This document shows positions 8,258 through 25,700 of a DNA stretch of 26,553 nt, one piece after another. The position numbers and the translations under genes were made by a program. Below the pieces are notes generated by a model that did not search any database, was not told the origin of the DNA, and worked only from the letters and a program-made list of their open reading frames with translations. How positions within the stretch are numbered: the stretch's first letter is position 1; each line of letters begins with the position of its first letter. The stretch comes from a virus: positions 1 through 26,553 of the IMG/VR virus record IMGVR_UViG_3300033145_000525, one strand, 5' to 3'.

Positions 8258-9730
8258 TTAATTGTCAAAGAATTCTGGTTCAAATTCCTTGTATAGTTCC
8301 TGATGTTGCACCAGCAACTGCGTGTGTTTATTCACCAGTTCTTCAAACTCATGATCGTAAACTCCGTTATGGCCTACCCCGCAAGAATGCGCCAACTCGT
8401 GAAGCACAAGTGAAGAACACTTAGATACAGGATTCTTCATCATGTCCCGTGTCACCCGCATAATGTTGAACGTAATCCCGGTCCCGTGGCTGTATATAGC
8501 GGCCGTATTCGTGCCCATCCACTGTGCGAAGTTCACGTTAATGTCCTTACCGTAGAACTGATTGCACAACATGTGTACATAGTCAGCCAGAGGTTTACGG
8601 TGTTCTGATACCTTGACTTCCTTGTAGCCGTCAGGCATCAGGTTTCCGCTTGACAGCACTTCCTTGTCTCGGGAGTACGACTCTGTTGTCGTCTTTACAC
8701 CTCCGCCGCGGAACTTGCTGTTGATCGACGACCCGAATGTTCGGGCTGAAACGATAGTGGCACCCTGTCGAGCTGCCTCCTGGTTGGCGTCTGCGTCGAG
8801 GGTCTGTATGACTGCGTTTTCGCCGAACTGCCGCTTAAACAAGCTTGCAGCGGTCTCCGCGTCGACACGTTCGTCTTCCAGGGCCATATGGACATGGGCA
8901 TCGCCCAGATCTCCCGGCTCCAGTAACTCGTCCAGGGCCACTACCATTTCTGCATAAATGTCTTGTAAGAACGACTGTGGTACCAGTGTGCGGTCATGTG
9001 ACAACGGCACCTTCTGCTGCACATTGGCATCGAACCGTCCGTCAATAGCGCACACGGGCAGCCCTAGCTCGTACAGGTACGCTGACTCGTGGCGCTTTGG
9101 ATAGAACCATACGTTGGTCATCCGTTGCGTCTTGGTCATTACCTGGTTACCATGAGCGTCTGTCTTCAGAAACTCCGTGGCCAGTTTAGTTTTGACGCTT
9201 TTCATAGGAGCCGCGTACTTCAGTTCCTCATCGTTAGCTCGAAAGTCAATACCCTTAGGTACATAAATCCTGCGCAGGAACGAGAGCACCTCTTTGCGTT
9301 CAGCTTCCGTCCAACGCGGGAAGTCTATAGACACTACGCTACCCATGTCGCGCTTCTTACGCGTGGCTTTACGCCCGGTCTTGTCGAATACGACTGTACC
9401 TTTTGTGGTCGAGATGATACCGCTCTTGGCTCTAGCCAATACGATCTTCTCACCCAGGTTAAACTTACCTCTTTTGGTAGGATCACCACGCTTATCCGTG
9501 CTCTTGAACAGGGTATAGGCGTCTCTGAGATCCTTGAATCCATCGGGGTTGTCGTCTTCAACCAGCAAAACTGTGCTGCGCGTCGACGGGGAATCCGCTA
9601 ACACCACCTTACACATCTTTGCATCTGTATCGAAACTGTTCTGTACCAACTCCGCCACCATACGTTCGGGCGGGAAGTTAGCGAACATTTCTTTGAATCC
9701 TTCTTTATCTACATCAAACCAATTGCCCAT
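8258..9730 (-). CDS. GHKL ATPase fused to HExxH zinc metalloprotease
   Basis: The N-terminal domain has the Bergerat ATP-binding signs of the GHKL group (Hsp90, gyrase B, MutL, histidine kinases): ELVQNSFD (E27, N31, D34) as N-box, VEDDNPDG (57-64) near the G1 position, and a glycine-rich GKFNLGEKIVLARA (88-101) as lid/G2. The middle part, with VPLSHDRTLVP, may be a transducer-like domain. The C-terminal domain contains LHELAHSCGVGH, an intact HExxHxxGxxH zinc site (H444, E445, H448, H454), followed by DHEFEELV. GGAG lies before the ATG at 9730 and it overlaps the UDG-like gene by 17 bases. No signal peptide, so it should act in the cytoplasm. Substrate unknown. Confidence 0.8.
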   Translation of the reverse strand: MGNWFDVDKEGFKEMFANFPPERMVAELVQNSFDTDAKMCKVVLADSPSTRSTVLLVEDDNPDGFKDLRDAYTLFKSTDKRGDPTKRGKFNLGEKIVLARAKSGIISTTKGTVVFDKTGRKATRKKRDMGSVVSIDFPRWTEAERKEVLSFLRRIYVPKGIDFRANDEELKYAAPMKSVKTKLATEFLKTDAHGNQVMTKTQRMTNVWFYPKRHESAYLYELGLPVCAIDGRFDANVQQKVPLSHDRTLVPQSFLQDIYAEMVVALDELLEPGDLGDAHVHMALEDERVDAETAASLFKRQFGENAVIQTLDADANQEAARQGATIVSARTFGSSINSKFRGGGVKTTTESYSRDKEVLSSGNLMPDGYKEVKVSEHRKPLADYVHMLCNQFYGKDINVNFAQWMGTNTAAIYSHGTGITFNIMRVTRDMMKNPVSKCSSLVLHELAHSCGVGHNGVYDHEFEELVNKHTQLLVQHQELYKEFEPEFFDN

Positions 9731-10076
9731 GTTTCTTCTCCACTGCTTTTGTCACTGCTTCTTTAATGTGTTGGTTGTACCGCTCCTTCTTACGGATACG
9801 GCCTCTGGCTGCTGGGTGTACGATAGGAATGTGCGACACACCAGCTTTGGTGAGCGCGTCCTGTACGATGCGGCCCATGCCGAATACGGCTCCGGGGTAC
9901 TGACGTATAAGCGCCTGTGACCTTGTATTGAACCAATTTTCGAACTTGCACTTCTGTGGGTCAACCCCACAGGCTGTTAGCGCATCGAATAGTTGTTTAC
10001 CTGCGAGGCGTCCATCCTCCCAGCTCCAGCCCTTACGTAATGCCGTAGGGCTTTTCTTTTCACCTACAAATAGCAT
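9714..10076 (-). CDS. Compact uracil-DNA glycosylase-like protein (120 aa)
   Basis: The frame is open to 10259, but the upstream part lies inside the previous gene, so the ATG at 10076 is chosen. The product begins MLFVGEKKSP with GRLAGKQLFDAL, and near the C-terminus has IVHPAARGRIR (H87). These resemble the GE...G...L and HPaaR elements of the UDG superfamily, in a shorter frame than family 4 enzymes (about 200 residues) and without their Fe-S cysteines. No ribosome binding site is visible; the nine bases before the ATG follow directly on a C(UUCG)G hairpin. It may remove uracil or a modified base, or only bind one. Confidence 0.6.
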   Translation of the reverse strand: MLFVGEKKSPTALRKGWSWEDGRLAGKQLFDALTACGVDPQKCKFENWFNTRSQALIRQYPGAVFGMGRIVQDALTKAGVSHIPIVHPAARGRIRKKERYNQHIKEAVTKAVEKKHGQLV

Positions 10077-10085
10077 AGTGATAAT

Positions 10086-10107
10086 GGGGGCGCCCGAAGG
10101 CGCCCCC
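10086..10107 (-). other. 9-bp GC hairpin with UUCG tetraloop
   Basis: On the minus strand the arms GGGGGCGCC and GGCGCCCCC close a TTCG loop through a C-G pair, the exceptionally stable C(UUCG)G RNA tetraloop. It lies between the stop at 10115 and the ATG at 10076. No T-run follows in either direction, so it is not a standard intrinsic terminator. Similar CUUCGG hairpins occur between phage T4 genes. Possible roles are shielding the upstream mRNA end or limiting initiation of the UDG-like gene. Confidence 0.8.
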
Positions 10108-10114
10108 TCAATCT

Positions 10115-11548
10115 TTACTGCTGTTGCTGCTCTGCAACTTGCTGTGCTATCGGAACTTGTGCTAGGCTTGGGGCGTCTACGCCGGCAGCCTGCAGCGTCA
10201 ATCCTGCACCTATTGCGGGACTCGGTGGGAAGATCATAGCTCCAACAGACCCCGGACAAAACGTCACGGGCATGTTATAGATCTTATTGTCCCCGCCTAT
10301 GATGGTCTGGCGTATGTCTTCCGACAGGCGCTCCTCGCCAACGTAGCAGTTACATTGTTCAGCCCCTACCTTAGGGTGGATACGCTTGAAGTCAGAGAAC
10401 AAGCGGGACAGCACAAACGACGACACGTGTGTAGATTTGCCGTTCAGTGTATTGTCCTTAAGCCACGACTTCAATGCCCATAGTCCTACGGGCCTTCCAT
10501 GTGCGGAAGCCTGAGCTGACGGTACATCACCGACGTACTGCCATTCGGACTTAGCGAATACGCTACCCTTCCACTGGTGCTTGCGCTTTCCCTTCTCGGG
10601 CATTACGTTATGCATCTCAGCCATCTTAGCTGTCACATGGTCGATACTGATAGGGCCATTAGCTGCCAGTTCCCGGGCTATGCGACGTGCGATCTGCACG
10701 AAGCCTTGCTTCTTGTCGCCGGCCAGGTCTATCTTGAACTGTCCCTCGGCTTTACCCTTTGCTGGGTCCATCTCAGCGTCTATCTGTGCTTTGCGTATAG
10801 CCTGCACCTGTGTGTCCAACGACGCGCCATTCTCGGACAGCAGAGACGCCACAAAGGCATCCTTAGCCTGCTGTAATGGTATAGGCACGGTCATATCTGG
10901 ATCACGTATGCAGTCGACCCATAGCTTTGCCGTTAACAGGTCAAAGCTGGTTGCTTCGCGCACATAGGCAATAGCCTTGATGCTGTCTTCGCCCTCGCCG
11001 AATAGTACCCTGGCTTTCGCGTCAATCTCCTCCAACAATTGTTGCGGAGTAAAGGGCTGCTCATCCCGAGGCAGCGGCGTGGCAGGCGTCTCCACTTTCA
11101 GCGTCTCCACTGCCGTAGTTTCACCGCGTCGTGCTGCCTGTGTAGGTCGGTTCTTCCATACTCCCGACCTAATTTGTGCAGCGCGAACACGTTTGTACTC
11201 TTCCCGCAGATCAGCACGTGAACGTTCAGGGGTCAGCTTACGCATCTCCTTAACGTAATCATCGCGCAAGCCAAGCTTGAACGCCAGTGCGTATTTATCT
11301 TCATCTGTGGGTGCTTTCGAAGACTTCTTCATATGAGGCTTAAGCAGCTCCACCTTAGCGACAATTTCATCTACATCTGAAAGAGGCTTCCCCGTGGTCG
11401 ACTCTTCTGTTTTTGGCGCTTCCACTGTGGATGCTTTTGCTGTTTTCGGGCCGGCGACAGTAGATTCACTCTTCTGTCCTGCCTCGTTATATCCGTTCTG
11501 TTTCAATATTTCATTGATCCCACTGATCATGTTTGATAGTTCTTCCAT
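10115..11548 (-). CDS. Unknown 477-aa protein with possible winged-helix segment
   Basis: The ATG at 11548 follows AAGGA at good spacing; a GTG three bases earlier is an alternative. Residues ~20-60 are Thr/Lys/Glu-rich and disordered. Residues ~60-215 are charged and helical. Around residue 285 a helix FVQIARRIARELAANG leads into PISIDHVTAKM and then a KHQWKGSVFA segment, which could be a winged helix-turn-helix. The C-terminus is rich in Ala and Pro and ends in four glutamines. The size and long transcript position suggest a DNA-metabolism or virion-associated protein, but I cannot name the family. Confidence 0.7.
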   Translation of the reverse strand: MEELSNMISGINEILKQNGYNEAGQKSESTVAGPKTAKASTVEAPKTEESTTGKPLSDVDEIVAKVELLKPHMKKSSKAPTDEDKYALAFKLGLRDDYVKEMRKLTPERSRADLREEYKRVRAAQIRSGVWKNRPTQAARRGETTAVETLKVETPATPLPRDEQPFTPQQLLEEIDAKARVLFGEGEDSIKAIAYVREATSFDLLTAKLWVDCIRDPDMTVPIPLQQAKDAFVASLLSENGASLDTQVQAIRKAQIDAEMDPAKGKAEGQFKIDLAGDKKQGFVQIARRIARELAANGPISIDHVTAKMAEMHNVMPEKGKRKHQWKGSVFAKSEWQYVGDVPSAQASAHGRPVGLWALKSWLKDNTLNGKSTHVSSFVLSRLFSDFKRIHPKVGAEQCNCYVGEERLSEDIRQTIIGGDNKIYNMPVTFCPGSVGAMIFPPSPAIGAGLTLQAAGVDAPSLAQVPIAQQVAEQQQQ

Positions 11549-11573: not shown

Positions 11574-11978
11574 TTATTTGTACTTACTGCCTGGCACTAT
11601 AATCTTTTTCGGCATCATATGTGTCTGCCATTCATCTATCTCGATGATCACAGACTGCCGTAAACCCGGCTGGCATATGTTACACGCTGAAGAGTGCAAC
11701 ACACTTCTAGGCCGGATATAATATCCGTTGTCCAGTATTTTAGGTATCAATCGGCAGATGGTGACCTTGCAATGAAAGCAAATCACCCTCGCCGCATCCT
11801 TATAGGTCGTCCAGCACTCCGGACAGATCTGATCAGGCTCACCCACATACTGCCGCATCAGGAACGCCTTCGTGCACAATAGGCACGGCACTATCGTTCC
11901 CGGCAACGGTTTCCCGCTCGTGTCCTGGAATAGTAGTGGGTCGTTCCGTAACTCTGGCAAGTCTCGCCAATCTGTCAT
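11574..11978 (-). CDS. Zinc-binding protein with four CxxC pairs (134 aa)
   Basis: Four CxxC pairs occur at residues 32-35 (CLLC), 52-55 (CPEC), 67-70 (CFHC) and 99-102 (CNIC), which probably make two four-cysteine zinc sites. The N-terminal 30 residues and a beta-rich C-terminus flank them. The first pair lies in the part that overlaps the glycosylase-like gene by 140 bases, and AGGAGG sits nine bases before the ATG inside that gene, so the early start is well supported. Cys4 modules of this type bind DNA, RNA or proteins; no specific role can be assigned. Confidence 0.75.
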   Translation of the reverse strand: MTDWRDLPELRNDPLLFQDTSGKPLPGTIVPCLLCTKAFLMRQYVGEPDQICPECWTTYKDAARVICFHCKVTICRLIPKILDNGYYIRPRSVLHSSACNICQPGLRQSVIIEIDEWQTHMMPKKIIVPGSKYK

Positions 11979-12645
11979 TGTAGTCTTCCTCCTCGAATAC
12001 GAACGACCAATATCTACTGTCGGCTTGGCCTTGTTTGTTATCCCAGTATGTCCATCGCGCTATCACGGGCGGCACGCGCACCTTTGCGCATTGTATAGCC
12101 CAGTGTGATTCTATCGCGTCCATGTCCGATTTACGGATACCGCGCTCGTTAATATGTTTGGCGGTGTAACCATACAACTGCAGTATATGAGTGTCAACAC
12201 AAATAACCTGTGTACGTAGCGGGTAGATCAGCTCTACCATGAACGCTGACTTAGCCTGTCCGATACCCTTGGCTTTGTTCTGCATACGTAACCTGTATTG
12301 GCTCCAGCTCTCGAACTTAGTCTTTAAGAACCAGTCCGGATGCTGCCAGTAATACTCGGTAAACTCGTGAATCCACTCTGCTCGATTGTTATGCAAACCC
12401 GCACGCACGTCAATGATCCTTCGTTTCAACTCATCGAAGTCATGTATCCATGCGAGGTCCCGCAACGCATAATACAGCTTGCAGTTCATCCTCCACGTTG
12501 AATGTACGCTGGCATACGCAAACAGCCACCTCCGAAAACGCTCCTCCGCTGTCCGCGGCGTTATACGTTTGAGGTAACGTGTATAACGACATAGCTGTAC
12601 GTCATTAACGGAGGCAATGTGTTTAGAGGCATCACTTGTCTTCAT
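11839..12645 (-). CDS. HhH-GPD DNA glycosylase-like protein
   Basis: Residues 126-135 (KGIGQAKSAF) form a helix-hairpin-helix, and 16 residues later CVDTHILQLYG carries the conserved aspartate (D151) that defines the HhH-GPD base-excision family (endonuclease III, MutY). Where endonuclease III has its catalytic lysine (GVGRK), this protein has GIGQA, with a lysine one residue later, so it may be a monofunctional glycosylase. The Fe-S cysteine cluster is absent. A following RWTYWDNKQGQADSRYW block may be specific to phage relatives. The ATG at 12645 is uncertain; an in-frame ATG at 12663 also lacks a good ribosome binding site. The last ~45 residues overlap the zinc-protein gene out of frame. 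Confidence 0.65.
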   Translation of the reverse strand: MKTSDASKHIASVNDVQLCRYTRYLKRITPRTAEERFRRWLFAYASVHSTWRMNCKLYYALRDLAWIHDFDELKRRIIDVRAGLHNNRAEWIHEFTEYYWQHPDWFLKTKFESWSQYRLRMQNKAKGIGQAKSAFMVELIYPLRTQVICVDTHILQLYGYTAKHINERGIRKSDMDAIESHWAIQCAKVRVPPVIARWTYWDNKQGQADSRYWSFVFEEEDYNDRLARLARVTERPTTIPGHERETVAGNDSAVPIVHEGVPDAAVCG

Positions 12646-13210
12646 GAAGCGCACTGAGCACATTAAACATTATATTGGTGTTAGTCTCTAACTGTTCCAG
12701 ACTACCATCGTTACAGATGCCCGAGTCCCACCCTGGGTAGGCCAACAACGCAGTTTCACTTGCATGCTGCATCTGTTCATCTGTGGCGTTAGGTGGCTTC
12801 CAACCAGGTCGCGTTATGCGTACCGTGTAGCCGCCCCATCCTGTTATGGCCTCAGCTTCATTCCAGAACCTTACATCAGGAATTACGATACGTGTACGCT
12901 GTGTCTGTTGAATTTTACGCTCTAGTGCCTTCACCCATATGTCCCGGAGGAAGTTATTGCGCATCGCCTCGGTCCCGAAACGCTGCAGGATCGCCCTGGG
13001 GGTTTCCCCCCAGAACGGATCCACAGTCATCTTGAAATCGAGGTCTTCCAGCTGCGCACGATCCCATCCGAAGATGACGCATGCAGCGTCTTTCAACGCA
13101 TCAGCAAAACGGACTCGCTGGAAGCCGTGATGCAGGCATAGCATGTCCGCAACGGTGTCCTTCCCAGAACCCATCTGAAAGCCTAAACCGATTATCAATT
13201 TGTCTTTCAT
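12632..13210 (-). CDS. Deoxynucleoside monophosphate kinase
   Basis: The protein starts with a P-loop in the form GLGFQMGSGKDTVADML (residues 8-24, K17), where the aspartate after GK is typical of phage dNMP kinases and dephospho-CoA kinase-like enzymes. FADALKD near residue 36 and RAILQRFGTEAMR near 74-86 match the nucleotide-binding and lid parts of this family, and VIPDVRFWNEAEAI (109-122) resembles its conserved D-R region. At 192 residues it has a normal length. It would phosphorylate dNMPs, including unusual ones in phages with modified bases, to feed replication. Only a weak AGG precedes the ATG, six bases after the upstream stop. Confidence 0.85.
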   Translation of the reverse strand: MKDKLIIGLGFQMGSGKDTVADMLCLHHGFQRVRFADALKDAACVIFGWDRAQLEDLDFKMTVDPFWGETPRAILQRFGTEAMRNNFLRDIWVKALERKIQQTQRTRIVIPDVRFWNEAEAITGWGGYTVRITRPGWKPPNATDEQMQHASETALLAYPGWDSGICNDGSLEQLETNTNIMFNVLSALHEDK

Positions 13211-14726: not shown

Positions 14727-15250
14727 TGTCGTAGTATACCCAAATTCCAAGGCCCAAATTGCTTAATGAATGCCGTAATGTCTTGCACGGCAATGTGATA
14801 GCCATCCTGCTCAAATATGACGTTGTACGGCGGAACTAAATCCAATCCTATCTCGTCTCGTGGCCAGGTGCTATATACGATACCCGTACGTGTGCCCTTT
14901 ACCCGTGTAAAGAATACTGGTAACCGCTTCTCGCCTGCAATGTCCACACTGGCATACCGCTCTAGTATGTCGCTGTGGTCAGCTTTACTTTCCAGCACCT
15001 CAATGTGCCATTGCCTGAATAGATTCAGCTTCGAGTGTCGCCTGAATGTATATTCCATTATGCGTCGTACCCTTATCCAAAGAGCGTCATCCTGGTACGA
15101 CTCATCGTAGATGTGATATTCCAATGCTATAAGATCACGCTGTACAACATCGAAACCCCGTAGCACACGTCGTGCTACGAGGTCCTCGATTGATTGATCA
15201 CCCAGCGTCTTCTTCGATTGATATCTCTTTCTCGCTTCCTTCCACCCCAT
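14723..15250 (-). CDS. Unknown phage protein (175 aa)
   Basis: The ATG at 15250 gives MGWKEARKRYQ; a GTG at 15259, closer to an AGGGG box, is an alternative. The first 53 bases overlap the end of the RecA-like gene in another frame. The N-terminal half is helical and basic (RVRRIMEYTFRRHSKLNLF), the C-terminal half beta-rich (RLPVFFTRVKG, RTGIVYSTW, YNVIFEQDGYHIAV). It directly follows the recombinase and could be an accessory factor, but no family is recognised. Confidence 0.6.
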   Translation of the reverse strand: MGWKEARKRYQSKKTLGDQSIEDLVARRVLRGFDVVQRDLIALEYHIYDESYQDDALWIRVRRIMEYTFRRHSKLNLFRQWHIEVLESKADHSDILERYASVDIAGEKRLPVFFTRVKGTRTGIVYSTWPRDEIGLDLVPPYNVIFEQDGYHIAVQDITAFIKQFGPWNLGILRQ

Positions 15251-16523
15251 GAAGAACACTCGCCCCTTTCGGTGATTTTTCGTTATCTTCTATTTCAGAG
15301 TCCGTCGGCATGTATTTAGTTTCGAAATCGAAACCCATACCGCGGATGCGTAATGCTTCCCTGCATGCCTGTAACAAGTCTTCGTTTGCATAGAAGTCAC
15401 GGAGGAATTCCTCGTCACTCTTATACACCTTAGTCTCGCTTACTGGCGGGCATTTGATGCCGGAGTTGCTACCACCTTGTCGCTTGATCACGTCCCGTAA
15501 CGGGGATGCAGAGTGCGACAGCAGGAAGTCTATGTCAGTCTTAACCAGGTCGAAACCGTGGTCACGTACCAAATAGATATCTAGCTCCCTATGTTTCGGC
15601 GACAGCTTGTTTTTTGTAGTGCGCAGTGTTATCCGCTCACCTATGTCTTCACCAGTAGCTTTATCGATATACTTGTGTCCTGTTAGGTCCACAGAATACG
15701 TGGAGTGGAACCCTATTGGCGTATCACCCAGCGACGTCTTTTTAGTTCCGCCGCGGCCTGCGCCAGGTCCCGTCTCTATCTTAGATTTCTGCTGTGCTGC
15801 AAGCATTAGAAGTGCCTGGCACTGCTTGTACCGGTCAGACCGATCTTGCAGGTACTTAGACATCTTCAACGAGTGAGCAGCTACCTGAGCAGTCTTAGCC
15901 TGATTTAGCACATCCTGCATAACGCGGGAATCTAAGCCTAGTGCGCTGAATGAGTCGACTCCGGCTACAATCGGAGACTCAAAGGTCGGGTCCAATGGGC
16001 TGTCAAACTTAGTTTTCACCATTTTACCTGTTTCAGGATTCATCACCTTCTCGGCTACGCCACCTCTAATTTGTGCCATTAGCTCGTCCAGTTTCTCGAA
16101 GCAATGCTCCAACGAGCGTGGACGCTCTAACACCAAGTCATGCGGATCACATCCGAAGGATGCGATAAAGTCCGGCGGAGGCGGTGTCGCTTCACTCTCT
16201 ATGTGATAACACCAACCCTGTTGCCGTTTCTGTGCCGCAGCATACATGAGCCACATGAACGCACTTTTGCCGACACCATACAGTGCCAGCAATCTTATAA
16301 TGCGTCCAGCAAGTAGTCCACGTCCCCCGAACAGCCACTCCATAGAAATGGTCGGCATATCCTGTAGGGGATTCCAAAAATCGACGTACCGCCAATCCTT
16401 GGTTATGTCGCTGGCACAGTAGACTTCCCGATCCTCTTGATTGTGCTTCAGCCGCCCAACTAGACTGGCTGCACGCGTCAAGGGTACATCGGGTTCTAAC
16501 TTTTTCTTCTTCCTTGGCGTCAT
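15198..16523 (-). CDS. RecA/UvsX-like recombinase ATPase
   Basis: The 441-residue protein carries a RecA-fold ATPase core: Walker A ALYGVGKSA (80-88, K86) in the A-x4-GKS form, an acidic YHIESE (106-111) where RecA places its activating glutamate, and Walker B PIVAGVDSFSALG (184-196, D190). A long insert between these and a C-terminal acidic tail (residues 405-441) resemble phage UvsX-type recombinases; the tail would regulate DNA access as in RecA. Expected role is strand exchange in recombination-dependent replication. AGGTAGG precedes the ATG. A DnaB-like helicase is less likely because a separate one is present at 24144-25700. Confidence 0.7.
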   Translation of the reverse strand: MTPRKKKKLEPDVPLTRAASLVGRLKHNQEDREVYCASDITKDWRYVDFWNPLQDMPTISMEWLFGGRGLLAGRIIRLLALYGVGKSAFMWLMYAAAQKRQQGWCYHIESEATPPPPDFIASFGCDPHDLVLERPRSLEHCFEKLDELMAQIRGGVAEKVMNPETGKMVKTKFDSPLDPTFESPIVAGVDSFSALGLDSRVMQDVLNQAKTAQVAAHSLKMSKYLQDRSDRYKQCQALLMLAAQQKSKIETGPGAGRGGTKKTSLGDTPIGFHSTYSVDLTGHKYIDKATGEDIGERITLRTTKNKLSPKHRELDIYLVRDHGFDLVKTDIDFLLSHSASPLRDVIKRQGGSNSGIKCPPVSETKVYKSDEEFLRDFYANEDLLQACREALRIRGMGFDFETKYMPTDSEIEDNEKSPKGASVLHGVEGSEKEISIEEDAG

Positions 16524-17143: not shown

Positions 17144-18556
17144 TTACTGGGTTGGCGGTGTTCCGCCCATCGTGCGCAGTTGATCCAGAAACTTGTCCTG
17201 GTCAAATGGCGCTACTGCATCTCCCGGTGCTGCCGGACCCGGCACTACCGGTGGCACTCCATTAGCTGGAGCTGCTGCCACTGGGGCCGCTTCCACTGGG
17301 GCCGCTGCTGCCACTGGGGCCGCTGCCGCTACAGGTGCTGCTGCCGCTACAGGTGCTGCTGCCGCCACTGGGGCCGCTGCCGCTACAGGTGCTGCTGCCG
17401 CTACAGGTGCTGCTGCCGCTACAGGTGCTGCTGCCGCTAGAGGCGCTGCTGCTGCTACAGGAGCTGCCACGGGGGCTGCTGCTGCTGCAACGTTAGCTGC
17501 TACGCCTGCTACTACCTCTGACGCTGCCACGGGCGCTGCTGCCACTGGTGCTGCCGCTGCGGGTGCCGCTGCTACAGGACTTCCACCGAAACCGCCACCA
17601 CCTGTTGCTACCGTCGGCGAGGCCGCGGGTGCTGCAGGGGGATCTGGAATCTGGAACTGCGGGAACGCCATCTTAAGCAAAGCGTGCTCGTGATAGCCCT
17701 GAGGCGATCGCATGCTCAGCAAACCGATTAGCGTATTGATAACATCCTGCTCCTGAGGAATATTCAGGAATGACGCAGGCTCAGTCATGTTGTACCGCTC
17801 TTTCAGGAGGTCCTGTCCTACTGGACGTTTAACTACCTGATTTTGGTTATCCAATGCTAGCGATATCACGTACTTCGAGTACTCGCCCTGGTTGTCCTGC
17901 TTCTGACATATCAGCACTGGACCTTCGGCCGGACTTGTCATATCCCCAACTGCGAATTGCAGCAGATAGTTCTGGCTTACGATCTCTGCCGGCAAGTTAT
18001 TCCGCTGGAATACCAGGCCGTTCTTTGTGCCGATCAGTGAGTTGCATGAGCTTGACGAGAATACGCCAATCTGCACACCCTTCGCTGGCTGGTTTGCATC
18101 CCAGATGTTGGCAATGAAGTGGTTAAGCGGTTTGCTGAACGCAGCACGCTCCCTGCTCTTGCCGTCTCCTGTGTCTTCCATCAGGTAACCCCAATCGCCA
18201 GAATTCTGGCTGATCGTCAGGCAAAGATGCTCCAACGGATCGAATATCTCGTCCCCCGGCTTTGCGAATGTACGCAGTGACAGGATGTCCTGTCGCGTAC
18301 CAAACTTTCCACCGCCGTGTCCGACGAACCGTGAAATGTATAATACCATTCCAAAGTCTGTTAGATGCCCGTCAGGTGACATGAATGTCACGCATGACGT
18401 AGCTGGGTCAGGGTTACTCGGATCGAATGCTGGAAGCATTCTGAACGCGATCGGGTCCTTGCCCGTCATGTTGCGGAAACGCACCCCATCTTTGAAGATG
18501 AGGTTCTTACGTCCCGAACCTGTTTTCATTGTCTGTACTTGATTGTCTAATCCCAT
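17144..18556 (-). CDS. Probable DNA-binding protein (SSB-like) with Ala/Pro repeat tail
   Basis: The 470-residue protein has two parts. Residues 1-305 are folded and beta-rich, with FRMLPAFDPSN (38-48), a glycine-rich VGHGGGKFG (78-86) and aromatic residues spread as in nucleic-acid-binding proteins. Residues 306-450 are Ala/Pro/Val-rich with a repeated AAAAPV hexapeptide, a probable flexible linker, then a short DQDKFLDQLRTMGG tail that might bind partners. Position between polymerase and recombinase, a strong AAGGAG site and a private terminator fit a single-stranded DNA-binding protein needed in bulk. I see no diagnostic OB-fold motif, so this is context-based. No zinc motif is present. 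Confidence 0.5.
   Translation of the reverse strand: MGLDNQVQTMKTGSGRKNLIFKDGVRFRNMTGKDPIAFRMLPAFDPSNPDPATSCVTFMSPDGHLTDFGMVLYISRFVGHGGGKFGTRQDILSLRTFAKPGDEIFDPLEHLCLTISQNSGDWGYLMEDTGDGKSRERAAFSKPLNHFIANIWDANQPAKGVQIGVFSSSSCNSLIGTKNGLVFQRNNLPAEIVSQNYLLQFAVGDMTSPAEGPVLICQKQDNQGEYSKYVISLALDNQNQVVKRPVGQDLLKERYNMTEPASFLNIPQEQDVINTLIGLLSMRSPQGYHEHALLKMAFPQFQIPDPPAAPAASPTVATGGGGFGGSPVAAAPAAAAPVAAAPVAASEVVAGVAANVAAAAAPVAAPVAAAAPLAAAAPVAAAAPVAAAAPVAAAAPVAAAAPVAAAAPVAAAAPVAAAAPVEAAPVAAAPANGVPPVVPGPAAPGDAVAPFDQDKFLDQLRTMGGTPPTQ
17267..17578. repeat. In-frame 18-bp tandem repeats coding AAAAPV
   Basis: The plus-strand unit GCTGCTGCCGCTACAGGT and close variants recur with 18-bp period; the most regular part is 17297-17455, with degenerate flanks on both sides. 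In the coding frame each unit gives six residues (AAAAPV, with rare L or E replacements). Third-position changes between units without amino-acid change suggest selection on the protein as well as slippage or unequal exchange. Confidence 0.9.
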
Positions 18557-18571: not shown

Positions 18572-21379
18572 TTATACTTTCTCACCCCATCGCGTCATAA
18601 CGTCGATGTCAATACCCAAACGAAGTGGGTCCCTGTCAGGAATCGGGATATCAATTTTACCCATAGTTTCCTGGAACATCACTTTTGTTTCCTCTATTTC
18701 GTTTTCGGGCACTTCGACCATCACCGCATCGTGAATCTGATTCACTATACGGAAATGTAGGTTATGCTCTTCCCTGTATCTCTTGATTAGGTACATGGCA
18801 ACCATGCACGTATCAGCTACTGTACTTTGAATCGGGAAGTTCTGCGCCTGGCGTTGCATGCCAGCCACACCTTCTCGACTATTACCAACAGTGAAACGTC
18901 GGCATCTACCCCACGGATTTGTCAACAAACCCGTCTTAGTTACAGCGTCGGCACAACTACACATGTAGCCCCACGCATCTACGAATGTTTGTTCTTTCCA
19001 CACCTCCATCATTGTATCGATCTCGGCCTGTAATATGTCCAACGATTGAGTTGAACCGGTCTCGCCCTTTACCTGTCGCGCAATGTCCATAGACCCACGC
19101 CCGTAGGGGATTCCGAAGTTCAAGTTCTTCGCCGACACACGAATCGTATTCTTAAAATCAGCTCGTGACATTCTTTCCCCTTGCAGGTCCAGGTACATCA
19201 GTTGCTTCTGTAACTTCTCGAACGCAGCCATATCGTCTTTGGCCAACGTCAGTAAGTAATCTTCAGGCATCGGGTTACCGTCAGGCCCCAATACAGATAG
19301 ATGGAATGAACTTATAGCCGTCATGTCATGCATGTCTTTACCCGGCGTGGTAAGTGTACCCCACATAACCTCATCCCCGGACAGTGCCGCAAGTACGAAT
19401 AACTCAGCCTGCACAAAGTCGGCCTCCATCAAGAAGTGCCCTGGTTTCGGTATAACAATCGTACGGATCTGATCCGGACGTTCTTTACCAAAAGTTTCGA
19501 ATATCTTCCAGATATACCCCTCAGCGCGCTTCGGCCAGTTCTGGCAATTTGGTTTGCTGGTTTTGAATCTACCCGTTTCCGCTAACTGCGAAAAGCGTGG
19601 ATGTATTCGTCCGTCAACCCATATCTTTGCTATGATTCCACCACCCGAGGTAGCCTCGTCAAAGTCCGGGGAAGGATCCCTTAGCCACGTCTTCCGTGCC
19701 TGGTCAACCCGCCTGATGTCCGCCATCACCTTCACGAATGGATGTTTTTCCTGTAGGATTTCCAACGTATTCATGTCGGTGCACGGACTATACAGTGCCT
19801 GCGCTTCACGCGGCTGGTTCTGCATATGATCGGTCCACGCCTTACCCTTAGTCGTCTTTATAGGTGTAAGACCCAAGTTATCGAAAAGCAAACTAGCCAC
19901 CTGTGGCTGTGAACGAAAGTTGAAATCAACAACACCCTCGTTATGCGCCATAAGCTTTGCTCGGCTCGCTAACTGGGTCAGGACCTCAGTGTAATCCTTC
20001 GTTAGATGTGCTAACCGTTCCTTGTCGATCAACATACCAGTACGCTCAATCTCATAGAGCGTATGCTGCGTATCCATATCTGTTTCCCACAGACTTGGGT
20101 ACTTACCACGTGGCTCCCTAAACTGCTGTAACTCCGGCGCCTGCTTAATCGCAATACGCCTGGGAGCATCTACGTCCCATGCACTATACGGAAGCAGCAA
20201 GTCCCGGGGGACCGGTCCGTATCCGTGTTTACATATCTTCTTATGCTCCTTGACCCACTCCTTAACCGGCAACTCGTAGTGCCCGATATTCGTGTACTTG
20301 ATCGTTAGATCCTCAAGGGCGAACGGACCTGTCTCGCAGATGTCATGCTCAGCCAGCATGGTGTCATACACCACACGCGACCTTACGTCGATATCGTAGC
20401 TCAGAAGCCACTCACCGTCAGCGATCACGTTCTGTCCGCCTATGTCGACCCGCTCGTCTTCCAGTATTAGCTTTATCTCGGCCCAGGCTGCGTCATGGTC
20501 GTCCATGACATTACCCCTACAGTCGTGCGTCCAACTCTCTCCCTCGGGCACTACGCCTTCGTCAAAGAATTCAATCACGACTGCCTGACCAAGTTCAAAC
20601 CCCAGCTGTACAGTCCTGATATAGCGGTCTGGTGACATCCATGTCGCACCATCCCACTCACAGTCAATCATCAAGAACGGATTGGGGTACGTATCAAACA
20701 GATGTTGCTTGAACGCCCGGATCTGCGCTACACTCTGGAGCACCATGAAATTCATGGTATCCCGCTCAACTTCTCTGCCCAACTGGCGGTCAGTCAACAA
20801 CTTCCAGTCCCTGTCGTAGTCTACCTGGCGTTCTGGGTTGCGCAGTATGAACGCTGGATTGTAGGTAGTGAATACCTCGGTATCCGGTAACGTCGGATGC
20901 TTTACGAACGAACCCCTGTAATCAGACAGGTTATGCCCCCGTCCCATTACCGCGGTCAGCGACTTGGCGCCTAGGCAAACAATTACCTTGGGGGCGCACC
21001 GCTTCATTTCCTCTTCCAGACACGGACGACAGACCTTCAAATCGCTGGCGTTAACGGCCCGCTTTGCCGGCGGACAGAACTTTACAGCGTTGGTCATGTA
21101 TATCGCGTAGTCTTCAGCCCTAGCCGCTACATGCTTGCAGCTGGCCACACCTTCCTTAAGGTACTGGAACCCGGCCTTGTCCATGGTCGGGAACAGGATT
21201 TCCAGCCCGGCCGGCCCAGTAAACAGGTTGCCAGTAGTTACTTCTTCGTTACCGGGCCGCTCCCCTACGATCATGTACTCAGCGGGTAACTGTCCGATGC
21301 CCTTGATCCATTTCAGGTCATCGATTACCTCGGTATGCTCTAGCCACTGCGGGCCGTCTGGTCTTTTCTCTTTCGCCAT
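18572..21379 (-). CDS. Family A DNA polymerase with N-terminal UDG-like domain and 3'-5' exonuclease
   Basis: Three domains are readable in 935 residues. Residues 30-200 resemble family-4 uracil-DNA glycosylase: IVGERPGNEE (37-46), GNLFTGPAG (50-58), YMTNAVKFCPP (94-104) and TTYNPAFILR (171-180), where asparagine 174 replaces the usual histidine of HPA. Residues 230-420 are a DEDDy exonuclease: IDCEWD (D239, E241), NVIADGEWL (D321) and YSAWD (Y398, D402), all present. The PolA domain has motif A ADFVQAEL (D654, E659), motif B with R747, K751, F755, Y759, and motif C QIHDAV (D884) with alanine instead of glutamate after the aspartate. AGGAGG precedes the ATG. This is the replicative polymerase. 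Confidence 0.93.
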   Translation of the reverse strand: MAKEKRPDGPQWLEHTEVIDDLKWIKGIGQLPAEYMIVGERPGNEEVTTGNLFTGPAGLEILFPTMDKAGFQYLKEGVASCKHVAARAEDYAIYMTNAVKFCPPAKRAVNASDLKVCRPCLEEEMKRCAPKVIVCLGAKSLTAVMGRGHNLSDYRGSFVKHPTLPDTEVFTTYNPAFILRNPERQVDYDRDWKLLTDRQLGREVERDTMNFMVLQSVAQIRAFKQHLFDTYPNPFLMIDCEWDGATWMSPDRYIRTVQLGFELGQAVVIEFFDEGVVPEGESWTHDCRGNVMDDHDAAWAEIKLILEDERVDIGGQNVIADGEWLLSYDIDVRSRVVYDTMLAEHDICETGPFALEDLTIKYTNIGHYELPVKEWVKEHKKICKHGYGPVPRDLLLPYSAWDVDAPRRIAIKQAPELQQFREPRGKYPSLWETDMDTQHTLYEIERTGMLIDKERLAHLTKDYTEVLTQLASRAKLMAHNEGVVDFNFRSQPQVASLLFDNLGLTPIKTTKGKAWTDHMQNQPREAQALYSPCTDMNTLEILQEKHPFVKVMADIRRVDQARKTWLRDPSPDFDEATSGGGIIAKIWVDGRIHPRFSQLAETGRFKTSKPNCQNWPKRAEGYIWKIFETFGKERPDQIRTIVIPKPGHFLMEADFVQAELFVLAALSGDEVMWGTLTTPGKDMHDMTAISSFHLSVLGPDGNPMPEDYLLTLAKDDMAAFEKLQKQLMYLDLQGERMSRADFKNTIRVSAKNLNFGIPYGRGSMDIARQVKGETGSTQSLDILQAEIDTMMEVWKEQTFVDAWGYMCSCADAVTKTGLLTNPWGRCRRFTVGNSREGVAGMQRQAQNFPIQSTVADTCMVAMYLIKRYREEHNLHFRIVNQIHDAVMVEVPENEIEETKVMFQETMGKIDIPIPDRDPLRLGIDIDVMTRWGEKV

Positions 21380-21388
21380 TGTGGCCTC

Positions 21389-22147
21389 CTATAGGTCTAT
21401 TTCCGGATATTCAACTGGTGTTGGCTCGACTAGCATAGTTCGAGGCAACTTTGTGCTGTAGCTGATGTTCATTCGCCACTGCTTCGGTAACGGTCCTGTG
21501 AAGTGTATCGAGTGTGCCTTACCAAAGTACTTATGGCCCCAGGACGTAACGTTGTACTCCTGCGGCAACATATAACAATTCATTGTACGGCAAACGATAT
21601 TCCACATCTCCATGCCGGGTGCAAAACTGTTAAAGTCAATGCTTTTATGGTTCAATACATGCTCGCAATCGTCCTTCAACGAACGTCGCATGTAGATGAA
21701 ACCCTCTTCCATATAAGGCCCTTCCGGGTCCATGCCGTTACGCTGTAATGCTTTAGGCACCAGGTCCATAGGCAATACGTTGGGCACCCACAGCATATCA
21801 GCTGCGGGGGCTGTCGTTTCAAGATGCGTTAGATCGCTGAGGATATCGATATCTGGATCAGCGTATAATCCTTCATCTAATCCGAATATGTCGAGCAAGC
21901 TGGAACGCAGTAGGTCGTAGTACAACAAGCGTCCCTGTATTTCCTGCTTCTTTACAAACTTGATGTCCCGGAAGTAATCGGGGCCTACCTTTTCAAGGTG
22001 TGCTCGTATCGCCGGATCGTCCCTACCCGTTGTTGGTACCAACAGGTACAACTTGACGTCAGGTATTTTGGACATAGCGTAATACACAAAACGTTTCAGG
22101 TGTGTACCCACCCAATCGTCTGCGTGACATATCGTCATTACATTCAT
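21389..22147 (-). CDS. GT8-like glycosyltransferase (252 aa)
   Basis: The centre has LYADPDIDILSDL (94-106), a DxD-type sugar-nucleotide and metal site (D97/D99/D101), and the C-terminal part has AHSIHFTGPLPKQW (211-224), like the H-F-x-G...W signature closing the GT8 active site. The N-terminus TICHADDWVG would begin the Rossmann-like fold. The start overlaps the previous gene as ATGA, with GAGGAA upstream. Lying between methyltransferase-like genes and the DNA polymerase, it may modify DNA, or a glycan or protein. DNA glycosylation is known in T4 (by unrelated enzymes), so here it is only a hypothesis. Confidence 0.6.
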   Translation of the reverse strand: MNVMTICHADDWVGTHLKRFVYYAMSKIPDVKLYLLVPTTGRDDPAIRAHLEKVGPDYFRDIKFVKKQEIQGRLLYYDLLRSSLLDIFGLDEGLYADPDIDILSDLTHLETTAPAADMLWVPNVLPMDLVPKALQRNGMDPEGPYMEEGFIYMRRSLKDDCEHVLNHKSIDFNSFAPGMEMWNIVCRTMNCYMLPQEYNVTSWGHKYFGKAHSIHFTGPLPKQWRMNISYSTKLPRTMLVEPTPVEYPEIDL

Positions 22148-22686: not shown

Positions 22687-23225
22687 TATGTTACCCGCTT
22701 CGCGATGAACCGGCCTTTACTATACAACATGGCTTCCCATCCGATTGTGTTGAACAACTTTTTCTGCATCTTCACCATTGCGTCCTCGGTTTTAGCGAAG
22801 CTATCCTTGGCGGCATAGAGCTCTACCATGATGCGGCAATCCTTTTTAGCCACCCGCTGTAGCTCACCGATAACCTGATTCTGTTCCTTGCTGTTCAGGA
22901 ACATGAGTACATAATTAGCCAGTATGATGTCTACTGTATGGTCAAGCAGCGGTATACGTTCCTCACCCAATGTTATCTTGTAGCCGTAATCGTTGCACAT
23001 ATCAAAGGCTACGTTATTCTTGTAACCTATTGAATGTAAGTACTTTACGTTACGTCCGTTGCCGCACCCTATGTCCATTATACCTAAGTCGGTTTCCTTA
23101 AACCAATCAGAGTGGACGTTAGGATTGTGTACCAGTTTATGTAGATACTTCCGCAAGTATGGCGTCGGCCCGTCTCCCCGGCCGCACCGCACACACCATC
23201 GCTCGTTCAAATATTGTCTACTCAT
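22686..23225 (-). CDS. Class I SAM-dependent methyltransferase (179 aa)
   Basis: Residues 47-63 (LGIMDIGCGNGRNVKYL) are a textbook motif I, followed by AFDM (73-76) as the strand-2 acid, IPLLDHTVDIILANYVLMFL (91-110) as motifs III-IV, and a conserved substrate-side helix. A CVRCG pair near residues 11-15 may be half of a small zinc site. No NPPY or PC motif of classical DNA methylases is present, so a small molecule, RNA, protein or an already modified base are more likely targets. The start overlaps the primase stop as ATGA. Confidence 0.7.
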   Translation of the reverse strand: MSRQYLNERWCVRCGRGDGPTPYLRKYLHKLVHNPNVHSDWFKETDLGIMDIGCGNGRNVKYLHSIGYKNNVAFDMCNDYGYKITLGEERIPLLDHTVDIILANYVLMFLNSKEQNQVIGELQRVAKKDCRIMVELYAAKDSFAKTEDAMVKMQKKLFNTIGWEAMLYSKGRFIAKRVT

Positions 23226-24196
23226 ATCACCAACCTATAGTCAAGCAGGTTTATATCCTGCGCCTGGGCTGTTGCGTAGATCTGTTTCCAAATCTCCTCC
23301 CTCGGCGCCTCACCTGCATCTTTGTATCCTTCAAGGTCTATGCGTACAACCGGAACCGTCCGGTGAAGGTTGCCCAGTAACTGGGCCGCTTCCGCATCAG
23401 CGTCGCCCGGATCCAATAGGATCACCACGAGCTTCCATTCAGGCATAAGCTTAATACGCTTAGCCTGCTGTTCGGATATACCCTTACCCAGGGTTGCTAC
23501 AGCACAGCGTCCGACTGCAATAGCGTCAAAAGGTCCTTCGCACACCACCACCACTTCGCTCTGTTTAGCCCAGTCGTAGTTGAAGAATATGCGCCCTTTC
23601 TGCACGCCGGGGGCCGTCCAATACTTCGGCGGCCGTACCCAGTCTCTGTCCTCGTCCTGTATGAAGCCCATGGCTTTACACTGGTCGTCTGCTACGCTGT
23701 CCGGGTCGTAGAGCAGGCGTGCCTGCCATCCAGCTATCTGATCATCCATCCAGAACGGAAATATGAGCGTGTTTGTGGTGTCGAATAAGCCACCGGCGAA
23801 ACGCCTACCGTCTACACAGTAACGCACACCAAAAGAATCACTCAGCTCTTTGTGGTCGAAACCACGCTGCTGTAAGTACAAGCGCGGAGCACTGTCCTCT
23901 TCAAGTGTCGTCAGCTCAACCAATTCGCCCGGTTCCTGTATGTGTGCAGGTAACGGAGCAGGCGGTGGGGGTGGTGGTTGACGCCCAAAGTTGGAACGTC
24001 CTACCAGATCCCCGACACCGCCGGTCTCGCCACATTTGAAGCAGATATAGAGTTCACGTAGGGGGTTGATGTAGAGCTTGCGCTTGCCCGAACAAAACGG
24101 ACAGTCGACGATATACTCTAACCCGTTTTTGCCCCTGGATTCTCTAACCTTGCCGAACTTCTGGAGTAGTATTGGTTTTATGTTGTTTTGGTGCAT
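23222..24196 (-). CDS. DnaG-like DNA primase (zinc finger plus Toprim)
   Basis: An N-terminal CPFC (32-35) and CFKC (52-55) form the four-cysteine zinc ribbon that recognises the priming site. A proline hexamer (residues 74-79) marks the linker. The Toprim part has VVCEGPFDAIAVG (217-229, E220) and ILLDPGDADAE (259-269, D262/D265/D267), the acid pairs that bind catalytic magnesium. At 324 residues it is shorter than cellular DnaG and lacks a C-terminal helicase-binding domain, as in many phage primases. The start at 24196 lies 53 bases inside the helicase gene, without a strong ribosome binding site, so the exact start is open. Confidence 0.88.
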   Translation of the reverse strand: MHQNNIKPILLQKFGKVRESRGKNGLEYIVDCPFCSGKRKLYINPLRELYICFKCGETGGVGDLVGRSNFGRQPPPPPPAPLPAHIQEPGELVELTTLEEDSAPRLYLQQRGFDHKELSDSFGVRYCVDGRRFAGGLFDTTNTLIFPFWMDDQIAGWQARLLYDPDSVADDQCKAMGFIQDEDRDWVRPPKYWTAPGVQKGRIFFNYDWAKQSEVVVVCEGPFDAIAVGRCAVATLGKGISEQQAKRIKLMPEWKLVVILLDPGDADAEAAQLLGNLHRTVPVVRIDLEGYKDAGEAPREEIWKQIYATAQAQDINLLDYRLVI

Positions 24197-25700
24197 GTCT
24201 ATTCACTAATTCTTTATGCATTCCCAGTACGTCATCGCGTTTACCTTCTCGTAACTGTCTTTCCACTTTACCTGCTGTGTCGTCATTGTCGTATAGCCGG
24301 AGAGTTGCTCCCTGGTATATGTTGAACACTGCTTCAGGATTGTCGCGGTTCTTCATAATAGACATAACAAGGTGCCGGTCACACGGAGGCGCCAGCTCAT
24401 CATCATCGTCCAGTATAGCGTCTCCGCGAACTATTTGATCGTCAATCATTTCAGCGTCGTTATGGGTCACGCCAATACCCAGACTCACGTCTACCGCATC
24501 ATTCTTGTGGTAGCCCCAGGCTGTATCGGACATACGCAATATGTCTTTACCGTCAGCCTGTCGTGTTCCCTGTGTAGCGGTCCAAAGTGCCACGTTGTAT
24601 TTACGCGCCAATTCGCCCAGTCCTTCACTTACACGGGTCAAGATTTGATCTTCACGCATGCTTTTGGATACGCGTAACCCAGATGGGTCGAGCCTATCAA
24701 GCCAGTCCACGTACACAGCTTTACATATGTCTGCTTCACCGTGGCGCTTATCCGTGTCTTCTAGCCACATTCTGATAGCCTGTTCGACATCACTTATCGT
24801 GAACCGTCGTTCTGACATATCCACTATCGCGTTATATCCAAAGTACTTGGAATCCGGGCATAACACCCATTGATAGCGTGAGGCTATATGTGCAGGCCAC
24901 TCCGTCACTGGTATCTTAAAGTACTGTGCTGGAATGTCCGCGGCAATTGTGTGGTAACGATGTTTGATTCTATGGCTTTTCAGCTCACACGTTAGAAACA
25001 GCGAACGCCAGCCCGCTGTAATGCTACCGTTCATGAAGTTAATGAGCCCCGTAGTCTTACCGACACCAGGACACGCCACTATCATACCCGTTTCGCCGGC
25101 ACCCAGTCCGCCTGATGTGAACTTATTCAACTGTGTGAGTACGGTCGGTACCCGTGTGAACGTCTCGTAGGTCAGCATAGCTTCCGGGTTCTCGTCGATC
25201 CCGTCCAGCACGATATCGCCACTGCGGCTGATCTGCTCATTCAGCGCTGTAATACGCTGCACGAAGTCTTCTGAACCTTGTCCCGTACTAAGTTGACCGT
25301 GGTATGCCGCAATTTCCTGACTAACGCGTACAGCTTTAATATAGTTTGGCAGCTGTGCCTGGTAGTAATCACTGTTGAGTACGCGTGTGTTAGCGATAGC
25401 CGCCATCACATACGCTAATGAATCGTAGTCCTCCGGCATCAGGATCGTCTGCGTTTGACCGCTCGGATTCCGTAACATACATTGAATGTGTAAACTCAAC
25501 GTAGCGAAATCGGGTAGCTTATTAAACGTTCTGAAGTAATCCTGCAGCGTCTCCAATACAAGTCGACACGGTTCCATATCAACGTCGGTCAGCTCCAGAT
25601 AACCCAGGGTACTGCGAAATAATTTTTCGTCCCAGGCTAAATGTGCAATCAGACCAATCTGATAATCTCTCGTGAAAAACCCACCTGCTTGTTGTGTCAT
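24144..25700 (-). CDS. DnaB-like replicative helicase
   Basis: The RecA-like core carries Walker A ACPGVGKTT (209-217, K215), FLTCEL (235-240) where DnaB has its catalytic glutamate, Walker B AVYVDWLDRL (D around 318), and ALWTATQGTRQ, matching motif H3 with its sensor glutamine. Residues 1-160 are helical, with a DnaB-type N-terminal domain arrangement, and the last ~40 residues are charged and flexible. It is expected to form a hexamer unwinding DNA at the fork and pair with the following primase. AAGGAG lies before the ATG, which overlaps the previous stop (ATGA). Confidence 0.88.
   Translation of the reverse strand: MTQQAGGFFTRDYQIGLIAHLAWDEKLFRSTLGYLELTDVDMEPCRLVLETLQDYFRTFNKLPDFATLSLHIQCMLRNPSGQTQTILMPEDYDSLAYVMAAIANTRVLNSDYYQAQLPNYIKAVRVSQEIAAYHGQLSTGQGSEDFVQRITALNEQISRSGDIVLDGIDENPEAMLTYETFTRVPTVLTQLNKFTSGGLGAGETGMIVACPGVGKTTGLINFMNGSITAGWRSLFLTCELKSHRIKHRYHTIAADIPAQYFKIPVTEWPAHIASRYQWVLCPDSKYFGYNAIVDMSERRFTISDVEQAIRMWLEDTDKRHGEADICKAVYVDWLDRLDPSGLRVSKSMREDQILTRVSEGLGELARKYNVALWTATQGTRQADGKDILRMSDTAWGYHKNDAVDVSLGIGVTHNDAEMIDDQIVRGDAILDDDDELAPPCDRHLVMSIMKNRDNPEAVFNIYQGATLRLYDNDDTAGKVERQLREGKRDDVLGMHKELVNRHAPKQHKTNTTPEVRQG

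Follow-up and report, generated by a model that had tools for sequence, protein, structure and literature searches.

What does a uracil-DNA glycosylase (UDG) domain do inside a DNA polymerase when its catalytic histidine is gone? The question is raised by an open reading frame (ORF) at positions 18572-21379, on the minus strand, of a 26.5-kb virus record in IMG/VR (IMGVR_UViG_3300033145_000525, 26,553 nucleotides; this whole stretch is referred to here as the window). The ORF encodes a UDG-superfamily domain, a 3'-5' exonuclease and a PolA polymerase in one protein of 935 amino acids. We found that the motif-2 His of the UDG domain is Asn in the window and is missing from every clade member found, and that His-less domains in such fusions are kept by purifying selection in the close pairs measured. 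We consider it reasonably probable that the domain is a catalytically silenced, selectively kept module of UDG fold in a replicative PolA enzyme, where it would hold DNA or a partner.

The gene starts with ATG, its coordinates include the stop codon, and translation of the same interval on the plus strand gives many stops; all its features lie on the minus strand. AGGAGG at 21385-21390, 5 bases 5' of the ATG, is a likely ribosome-binding site, going by the consensus. The UDG-superfamily domain spans residues ~24-199 (20783-21310), and PF03167 matches residues 29-191 (E = 1.1e-19, 71.3 bits against a cut-off of 24.3). The 3'-5' exonuclease domain follows at residues 235-411 (20147-20677); DNA_pol_A_exo1 matches residues 238-411 slightly below its cut-off (E = 1.3e-4, 22.3 bits against 23.6), and D239, E241, D321, Y398 and D402 are all in place. 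The Klenow-like PolA domain occupies residues 430-935 (18575-20092; DNA_pol_A, E = 1.5e-51), with D654, E659, R747, K751, F755, Y759 and H883-D884 all in place, the roles of these residues and of those of the exonuclease being presumed from equivalence with Klenow. Pfam found no 5'-3' exonuclease domain in the 935-residue protein. A first-pass annotation, made from the letters alone, had described UDG motifs ahead of an intact exonuclease and PolA domain in a single frame, and the ORF, the Pfam matches and the two sets of catalytic residues bear this out.

The best phmmer match of the UDG domain was the family 4 enzyme of Thermus thermophilus (Tth UDGa, PDB 1ui0; E = 2.2e-15). At motif 1 (residues 39-47, GERPGNEEV; 21239-21265) the alignment sets GERPGNEE against the Thermus GEGPGEEE, and at motif 2 (residues 173-182; 20834-20863) YNPAFILRNP against FHPAYLLRNP, with N174 opposite the His of HPA. 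The change from HPA to NPA that the annotation had reported at residue 174 is exact in its numbering (codon AAT, 20860-20858), and the alignment it had proposed, with family 4 UDGs and phage fusion polymerases, puts N174 at the position of the catalytic Tth H155. In family 4 UDGa four Cys hold a [4Fe-4S] site. Residues 1-80 of the window protein contain no Cys, which means that one half of that site, the N-terminal CxxC, is gone; C117 is retained in 8/8 members of the core subgroup described below. Other pocket positions fared differently: Tth E41 and E47 correspond to E40 and E46, Tth G42 is replaced by R41, and the water-positioning N89 by K106. F53 (21221-21223) and N97 (21089-21091) retain Tth F54, the stacking residue of the uracil pocket, and N80, which hydrogen-bonds to uracil N3/O4 (roles from the accessible part of PMC5387724). 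The curated family 4 model TIGR00758 scored the domain at 78.6 bits, below its cut-off of 125.3, compared with 120 for the relative L019 and 181.4, above the cut-off, for phage ctfzr933 (L014). The curated UdgX model TIGR03914 gave 80.3 bits (cut-off 189.95), and the window has no His from N97 to C117, where an equivalent of the cross-linking UdgX His, H109 of motif 3 (PMC10776899, accessible part), would be expected.

We found that loss of the His is a property of the whole clade. IMG/VR scans gave 14 distinct members: the window, L019, L101, L104, L107, L002, L005, L108, L109, L110, L111, L219, L221 and L223. L005 is the same protein as L003 and L004, loci found again on the same contig (e.g. 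L102, L103, L105, L106, L112, L209-L218 and L220) were counted once, L222 was excluded as it begins after the UDG domain, and L223 is cut at a contig end. None of the 14 has His at position 174: nine have N (window, L019, L101, L104, L005, L109, L110, L111 and L219), three have S (L107, L002 and L108), L221 has A and L223 has K. The first eight members listed form a core, in which the relatives are 38-48% identical over the UDG domain and likewise lack the His, so N174 is not a chance change or a reading error. By this comparison, the domain derives from a family-4-like UDG that lost its His before the group diversified. A host search found no relative in genome_contigs.

The expected effect of this loss can be judged from Tth UDGa, whose pocket consists of E41, G42, E47, F54, N80 and H155 (PMC5387724, in the part of the paper available, as for all mutant values here). 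Mutant H155S has a k2 of 7.2e-5 against 0.23 s-1 for wild type, a loss of more than 3000-fold, and retains its Km (7.6e-7 against 9.7e-7 M). L107, L002 and L108 carry Ser naturally; these mutant values include none for Asn, the letter of the window. N80A costs >40-fold and F54A ~17-fold, and neither E41Q nor G42D showed detectable binding to uracil-containing DNA. By analogy with these mutants, base excision by the window domain would be lost or slowed thousands of times. Loss of the His, R41 for Gly42 and K106 for N89, with both Glu, the Phe and the Asn kept, indicate that catalysis has very probably been lost and that binding is uncertain. The first-pass annotation had suggested a reader rather than a cutter. 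Its second half is well supported by the cost of H155S and by the absence in all 14 members of the His, the residue that stabilises the uracilate as it leaves, while reading is neither shown nor excluded.

One could argue that the domain is a weak or redirected glycosylase, which excises uracil or another base slowly or via other residues. Enzymes of families 2 and 6 act as glycosylases even though their motif 2 has no His (PMC5387724, accessible part), so absence of the His alone proves nothing, and E40, E46, F53 and N97 are all present in the window. However, the residue equivalent to N89 is K106, and the third position of motif 1, Asp in family 1 and Asn in family 2, is R41. A catalytic His elsewhere in the domain was rejected, since no other His column is conserved in the core (column 161 in 5/8 members, column 173 in only 2/8), and the UdgX cross-linking His is absent. 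We find this explanation quite improbable.

Structure prediction suggests that the domain still folds. An AlphaFold2 (AF2) model of residues 1-208 built from 35 sequences had a predicted local distance difference test score (pLDDT) of 92.9 and a predicted template modelling score (pTM) of 0.90; the full-length model, from ten sequences, had values of 82.1 and 0.75. The best solved matches of the domain model by VIA-align were UdgX 6ajo_A (Z 22.3), Sulfolobus 4zbx (22.1) and Thermus 1ui0 (21.8), in effect tied, so the fold places the domain level with UdgX and family 4. Further matches were Thermus 2d3y (Z 16.8), MUG 1mug (15.2) and the phiLo polymerase 9qhs (15.2). From residue ~206 on, the full-length model superposed on Klenow and Bst polymerase structures at Z 24-26 (1kfs_A, Z 25.4, 3.8 Å over 569 residues; 4dsj_A, Z 25.8, 2.9 Å over 563). 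9QHS was matched by the domain alone and was not among the best 50 matches listed for the full-length model.

Is the domain a relic, a former repair domain that drifts and is retained only since in-frame deletion is hard? Consistent with this, it evolves faster than its neighbours, mean identity in the core being 44.6% for the UDG domain, 54.2% for the exonuclease and 56.1% for the polymerase. We compared the ratio of nonsynonymous to synonymous substitution rates (dN/dS, NG86 method) of the UDG part with that of the rest of the gene in 12 close pairs. In the window-clade pair L109/L110, both His-less, the values were 0.221 and 0.121. Other His-less pairs gave 0.127 and 0.074 (L192/L193), 0.104 and 0.064 (L192/L194), 0.131 and 0.110 (L193/L194) and 0.196 and 0.147 (L197/L199); the three pairs drawn from L192-L194 depend on one another and have a UDG part of only 91 codons, and some dS values in the set exceed 1. 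The pair L153/L165, one with and one without His, gave 0.223 and 0.105. Among pairs with His the values were 0.053 and 0.033 (L008/L148), 0.154 and 0.125 (L161/L159), 0.141 and 0.142 (L163/L164), 0.181 and 0.128 (L157/L151), 0.055 and 0.093 (L134/L137) and 0.068 and 0.095 (L182/L170). Thus His-less UDG domains are somewhat relaxed yet clearly under purifying selection, even where the base pocket is gone. With dN/dS of 0.10-0.22 in His-less pairs, far below 1, a confidently predicted fold and the domain kept in 14/14 members, a drifting relic is very improbable. Such selection after loss of the pocket is the main argument for a role that is neither catalytic nor purely base-reading.

We then asked how widespread such losses are among UDG-PolA fusions. 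A UDG profile run across all collected loci gave 125 fragments, and removal of duplicates and of those <600 aa left 100 distinct UDG-PolA ORFs. This sample is not random: it holds the 11 window-clade members known at the time, L114, named phage records and, from a scan that used ctfzr933, Serbin and Almagne as seeds and gave 124 relatives, those of the best 80 that passed. In the His column 66 ORFs have H, 13 S, 10 A, 8 N and one each D, Q and G, so that 34 of the 100 are His-less, although the alignment of strongly eroded UDG domains is uncertain. In INPHARED, 46 records match the window UDG domain at E <= 0.01, and part of these matches are UDGs that stand alone. The first-pass annotation had called such fusions a rare type; they do exist, but 100 distinct ORFs in a limited survey and the INPHARED matches do not fit rarity.

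In an unrooted tree of the polymerase part only (quick IQ-TREE, 586 columns, UDG columns excluded) the 11 window-clade rows, all His-less, group at 100% support in the Shimodaira-Hasegawa-like approximate likelihood ratio test (SH-aLRT). On this tree the presence of the His must have changed 11 times, 10 of them forced by starred branches. It retains the long-branch or doubtful rows L121, L114, L015, L013, L011, L016 and L118; a 60-row subset, also a quick tree, with only L013 of these, needs 10 changes, 9 forced. As the canonical state is widespread, the direction from His to no His is the likely one. Both the F54 and N80 equivalents are kept in 8 of the 11 His-less ORFs within the window clade and in 0/23 outside it, making this the only surveyed lineage that lost the His yet kept both (8/34 His-less ORFs). 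Elsewhere His loss and pocket loss coincide across independent pairs (10 pairs, ~6 informative, median p 0.03). Pocket loss occurs with His present too, 15/66 His-bearing ORFs being without F/Y54 or N80.

These patterns bear on whether the silenced pocket is a uracil or modified-base reader, binding template uracil or a relative uncut and pausing the polymerase or switching it to the exonuclease. Archaeal PolB enzymes read uracil ahead of them with another pocket. In favour of a reader, F53 and N97 are invariant in 8/8 core members and also kept in L221; of 149 filled columns 25 are invariant, these two among them, with a chance of 0.027 for both. The lone lineage with the His lost and both residues kept, and the retained Km of H155S (PMC5387724, accessible part), count on the same side. 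However, at least two invariant columns among the seven named pocket columns is not unusual (p 0.33), and we therefore do not accept conservation of the pocket as proving that it reads. In the core, residue 40 is E or D, but residue 41, Gly in Tth and Ala in 58/100 surveyed fusions, is R, R, H, R, K, S, R and K in the window, L019, L101, L104, L107, L002, L005 and L108, and Y in L221, at the position where G42D, like E41Q, left no detectable binding. In the outer members L109, L110, L111, L219 and L223 residue 53 is L or Y and residue 97 is Y, so the pocket is lost in 5/14 members while the domain is kept, under purifying selection in the single pair that could be measured. Nor is there a sign of genes for DNA containing uracil or 5-hydroxymethyluracil: classical thymidylate synthase (PF00303) was found in 0/9 records and dUTPase (PF00692) in 0/5, with ThyX in 2/6. 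The title of PDB entry 9QHS, 'phiLo family-A DNA polymerase with modified template' (released 2026-03-25), indicates that others study such a fusion with a modified template; we found no paper on it in the open-access literature. Taken together, we hold a base reader to be unlikely.

Several points also weigh against the silenced, DNA- or partner-holding module that we favour. NPA by itself is no proof of inactivity, given the active His-less families 2 and 6. F53 and N97 persist in 9/14 clade members, with the G42 position substituted, and a purely structural part would not need them. The 14 members share descent, so their His loss counts as a single event, and L109/L110 is the sole window-clade pair measured, the core pairs being too divergent for dN/dS. 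With these points counted, the domain most likely serves as a non-cleaving module that would hold DNA or a replisome partner beside the exonuclease and polymerase; in the core subgroup, to which the window belongs, what is left of the base pocket may allow base sensing as well.

In a group of large phages the ORF very likely encodes the replicative DNA polymerase, an enzyme of family A. Its gene lies in a minus-strand run with, in the same operon direction, a DnaB-like helicase (24144-25700; PF03796, E = 1.5e-9; phrog_19, E = 3.8e-44), a DnaG-like primase (23222-24196; phrog_47, E = 1.1e-44) and a RecA/UvsX-like recombinase (15198-16523; PF00154, E = 1.4e-8; phrog_97, E = 5e-15). IMG/VR contigs of relatives reach 210,732 bases. 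No PolB or PolIII-alpha was found in 4/4 related records of 177-211 kb, contigs that are classed linear and may be incomplete. PF00476 matched two stretches in each of six records. Both fall within the fusion ORF for the window, L104, L109 and L111; the second is placed 1.6-2.1 kb downstream in L019 and L110, which fits a split second exon. For L019 this agrees with the HNH-type ORFs that break up polA after NLNFG, and for L110 a broken ORF end suggests the same. Since PolB and PolIII-alpha are missing and PolA matches fall only in the fusion gene or its split exon, the fusion is the only recognised DNA polymerase of these records and very likely their replicative enzyme.

Stretches bearing HNH-type ORFs interrupt polA behind NLNFG in L002 (9170-9435), L005 (8214-10396) and L019 (8202-10139), and L005 and L019 have a second interruption after NFP. 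A group I intron is recognised by Rfam in L002, with none above threshold in L005. The window gene, unlike these, is uninterrupted. By eye, the helicase ORFs of L002 (18-2402) and L005 (3-1619) carry an intein-like insertion at Walker A (GWGK|C...VTHN|TH in L002), whereas GWGKTH is uninterrupted in L019. The protein after the polymerase (17144-18556, minus, in the window; 8765-10276 in L003; 10763-12238 in L005) has a long Ala/Pro/Val repeat tail; L003 has 503 aa and the near-identical L005 491, a difference of 12 residues or ~two repeat units.

Elsewhere in the window, ORF 9714-10259 (minus) has a weak PF03167 match below the cut-off (E = 0.0025) and a VHPAARGR motif, and is a candidate only for a second UDG that replaces the lost activity; it had no match among 9 related records or in INPHARED. 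A dNMP kinase (12632-13210) and an adjoining HhH-GPD-like ORF (11839-12663, minus) had led us to consider a phage with hypermodified thymine. We dropped this idea, as PF00303 and PF00692 are absent from the searched records and the HhH-GPD match is faint (PF00730, E = 0.067, no PDB match). ORF 8258-9730 (minus) matches the GHKL ATPase family PF13589 (E = 1.1e-6); close to its end, a metallopeptidase-like motif, HELAH, is visible by eye. In other lineages UDG-PolA genes lie near thymidylate synthase (L007, L008 and L014), near dCMP or cytidine deaminase (L007, L008 and L123) and, in ctfzr933, also near 'pyrimidine hmase'; a link to altered pyrimidines there is possible.

How does the window protein compare with known systems? 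Family 4 UDGa (Thermus 1UI0, Sulfolobus 4ZBX) shares its fold (Z ~22), the motif-1 Glu, the pocket Phe and the base-binding Asn, but the window lacks the motif-2 His and the N-terminal Cys pair and scores below the curated cut-off. UdgX of M. smegmatis is equally close in fold (6ajo_A), but the window lacks its cross-linking His and falls below the TIGR03914 cut-off. Thermus phage phiLo polymerase (9QHS) is likewise a family-A enzyme with an N-terminal UDG, and superposing the domain of the window on it gives Z 15.2 (3.1 Å over 161 residues). Unlike the window, it keeps HPS, GEAPG, the Phe and the Asn, has 1175 aa and is distant in the polymerase tree. The SPO1-like phage polymerases LysYB1 and SBSphiC (L006, L010) have the same fusion with an eroded UDG domain in another polymerase lineage; SBSphiC has lost the Phe, Asn and His equivalents and keeps the acid as D, whereas LysYB1 keeps His and D and has lost Phe and Asn.

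The vaccinia UDG, unlike the window domain, is a separate protein of another UDG family, still an active glycosylase, with a PolB partner. In the vaccinia D4-A20-E9 processivity complex a UDG fold is nevertheless a replication factor beside a polymerase, a functional analogy to the module proposed here (PMC10253040, accessible part). A UDG-PolA fusion has been published for Pseudomonas phage PaBG, whose gp205 is a DNA polymerase I, and for the Lupandier group (PMC7412058, accessible part). Like the window protein, gp205 of this jumbo phage has the order UDG, exonuclease, polymerase in a single chain, and the model of the domain built by the authors fits 1ui0. By BLASTP, clear alignment with the window is confined to the polymerase part (21.6%, residues 486-895). 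Its UDG part (L208, 3105-6203) gives a weak profile match (E = 1.7e-6 in a 2-sequence search) with motif 1 LDYVPTED, and the alignment ends before motif 2. The accessible parts of PMC9629493, on the G20c polymerase, and of PMC8150378, on viruses with uracil-containing DNA, do not mention a UDG-PolA fusion. In the open-access literature, most subscription papers being outside reach, the PaBG paper was the single description of the fusion that we noticed, and we noticed none of motif-2 His loss in such fusions. Within the limits of these searches, we regard as new the clade-wide loss, the ~ten separate losses, the selection after loss and the one lineage with a pocket but no His.

About one third of the surveyed fusions, in ~ten separate lineages, lack the essential His, and selection keeps their fold. 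This contrasts with the published reading of such a domain as a working remover, the PaBG authors having inferred that theirs can remove uracil (PMC7412058, accessible part). A phage polymerase labelled as carrying a UDG should therefore not be assumed to have repair activity. It is rather unlikely, in our view, that the fused UDG has turned into a built-in base reader that captures template uracil or a relative without cutting and stalls or redirects the enzyme. If true, such a reader would be a bacterial-virus counterpart of the uracil read-ahead of archaeal PolB, evolved from a repair enzyme. The natural variants N, S and H at one position allow a direct answer to whether the domain cuts, reads or holds.

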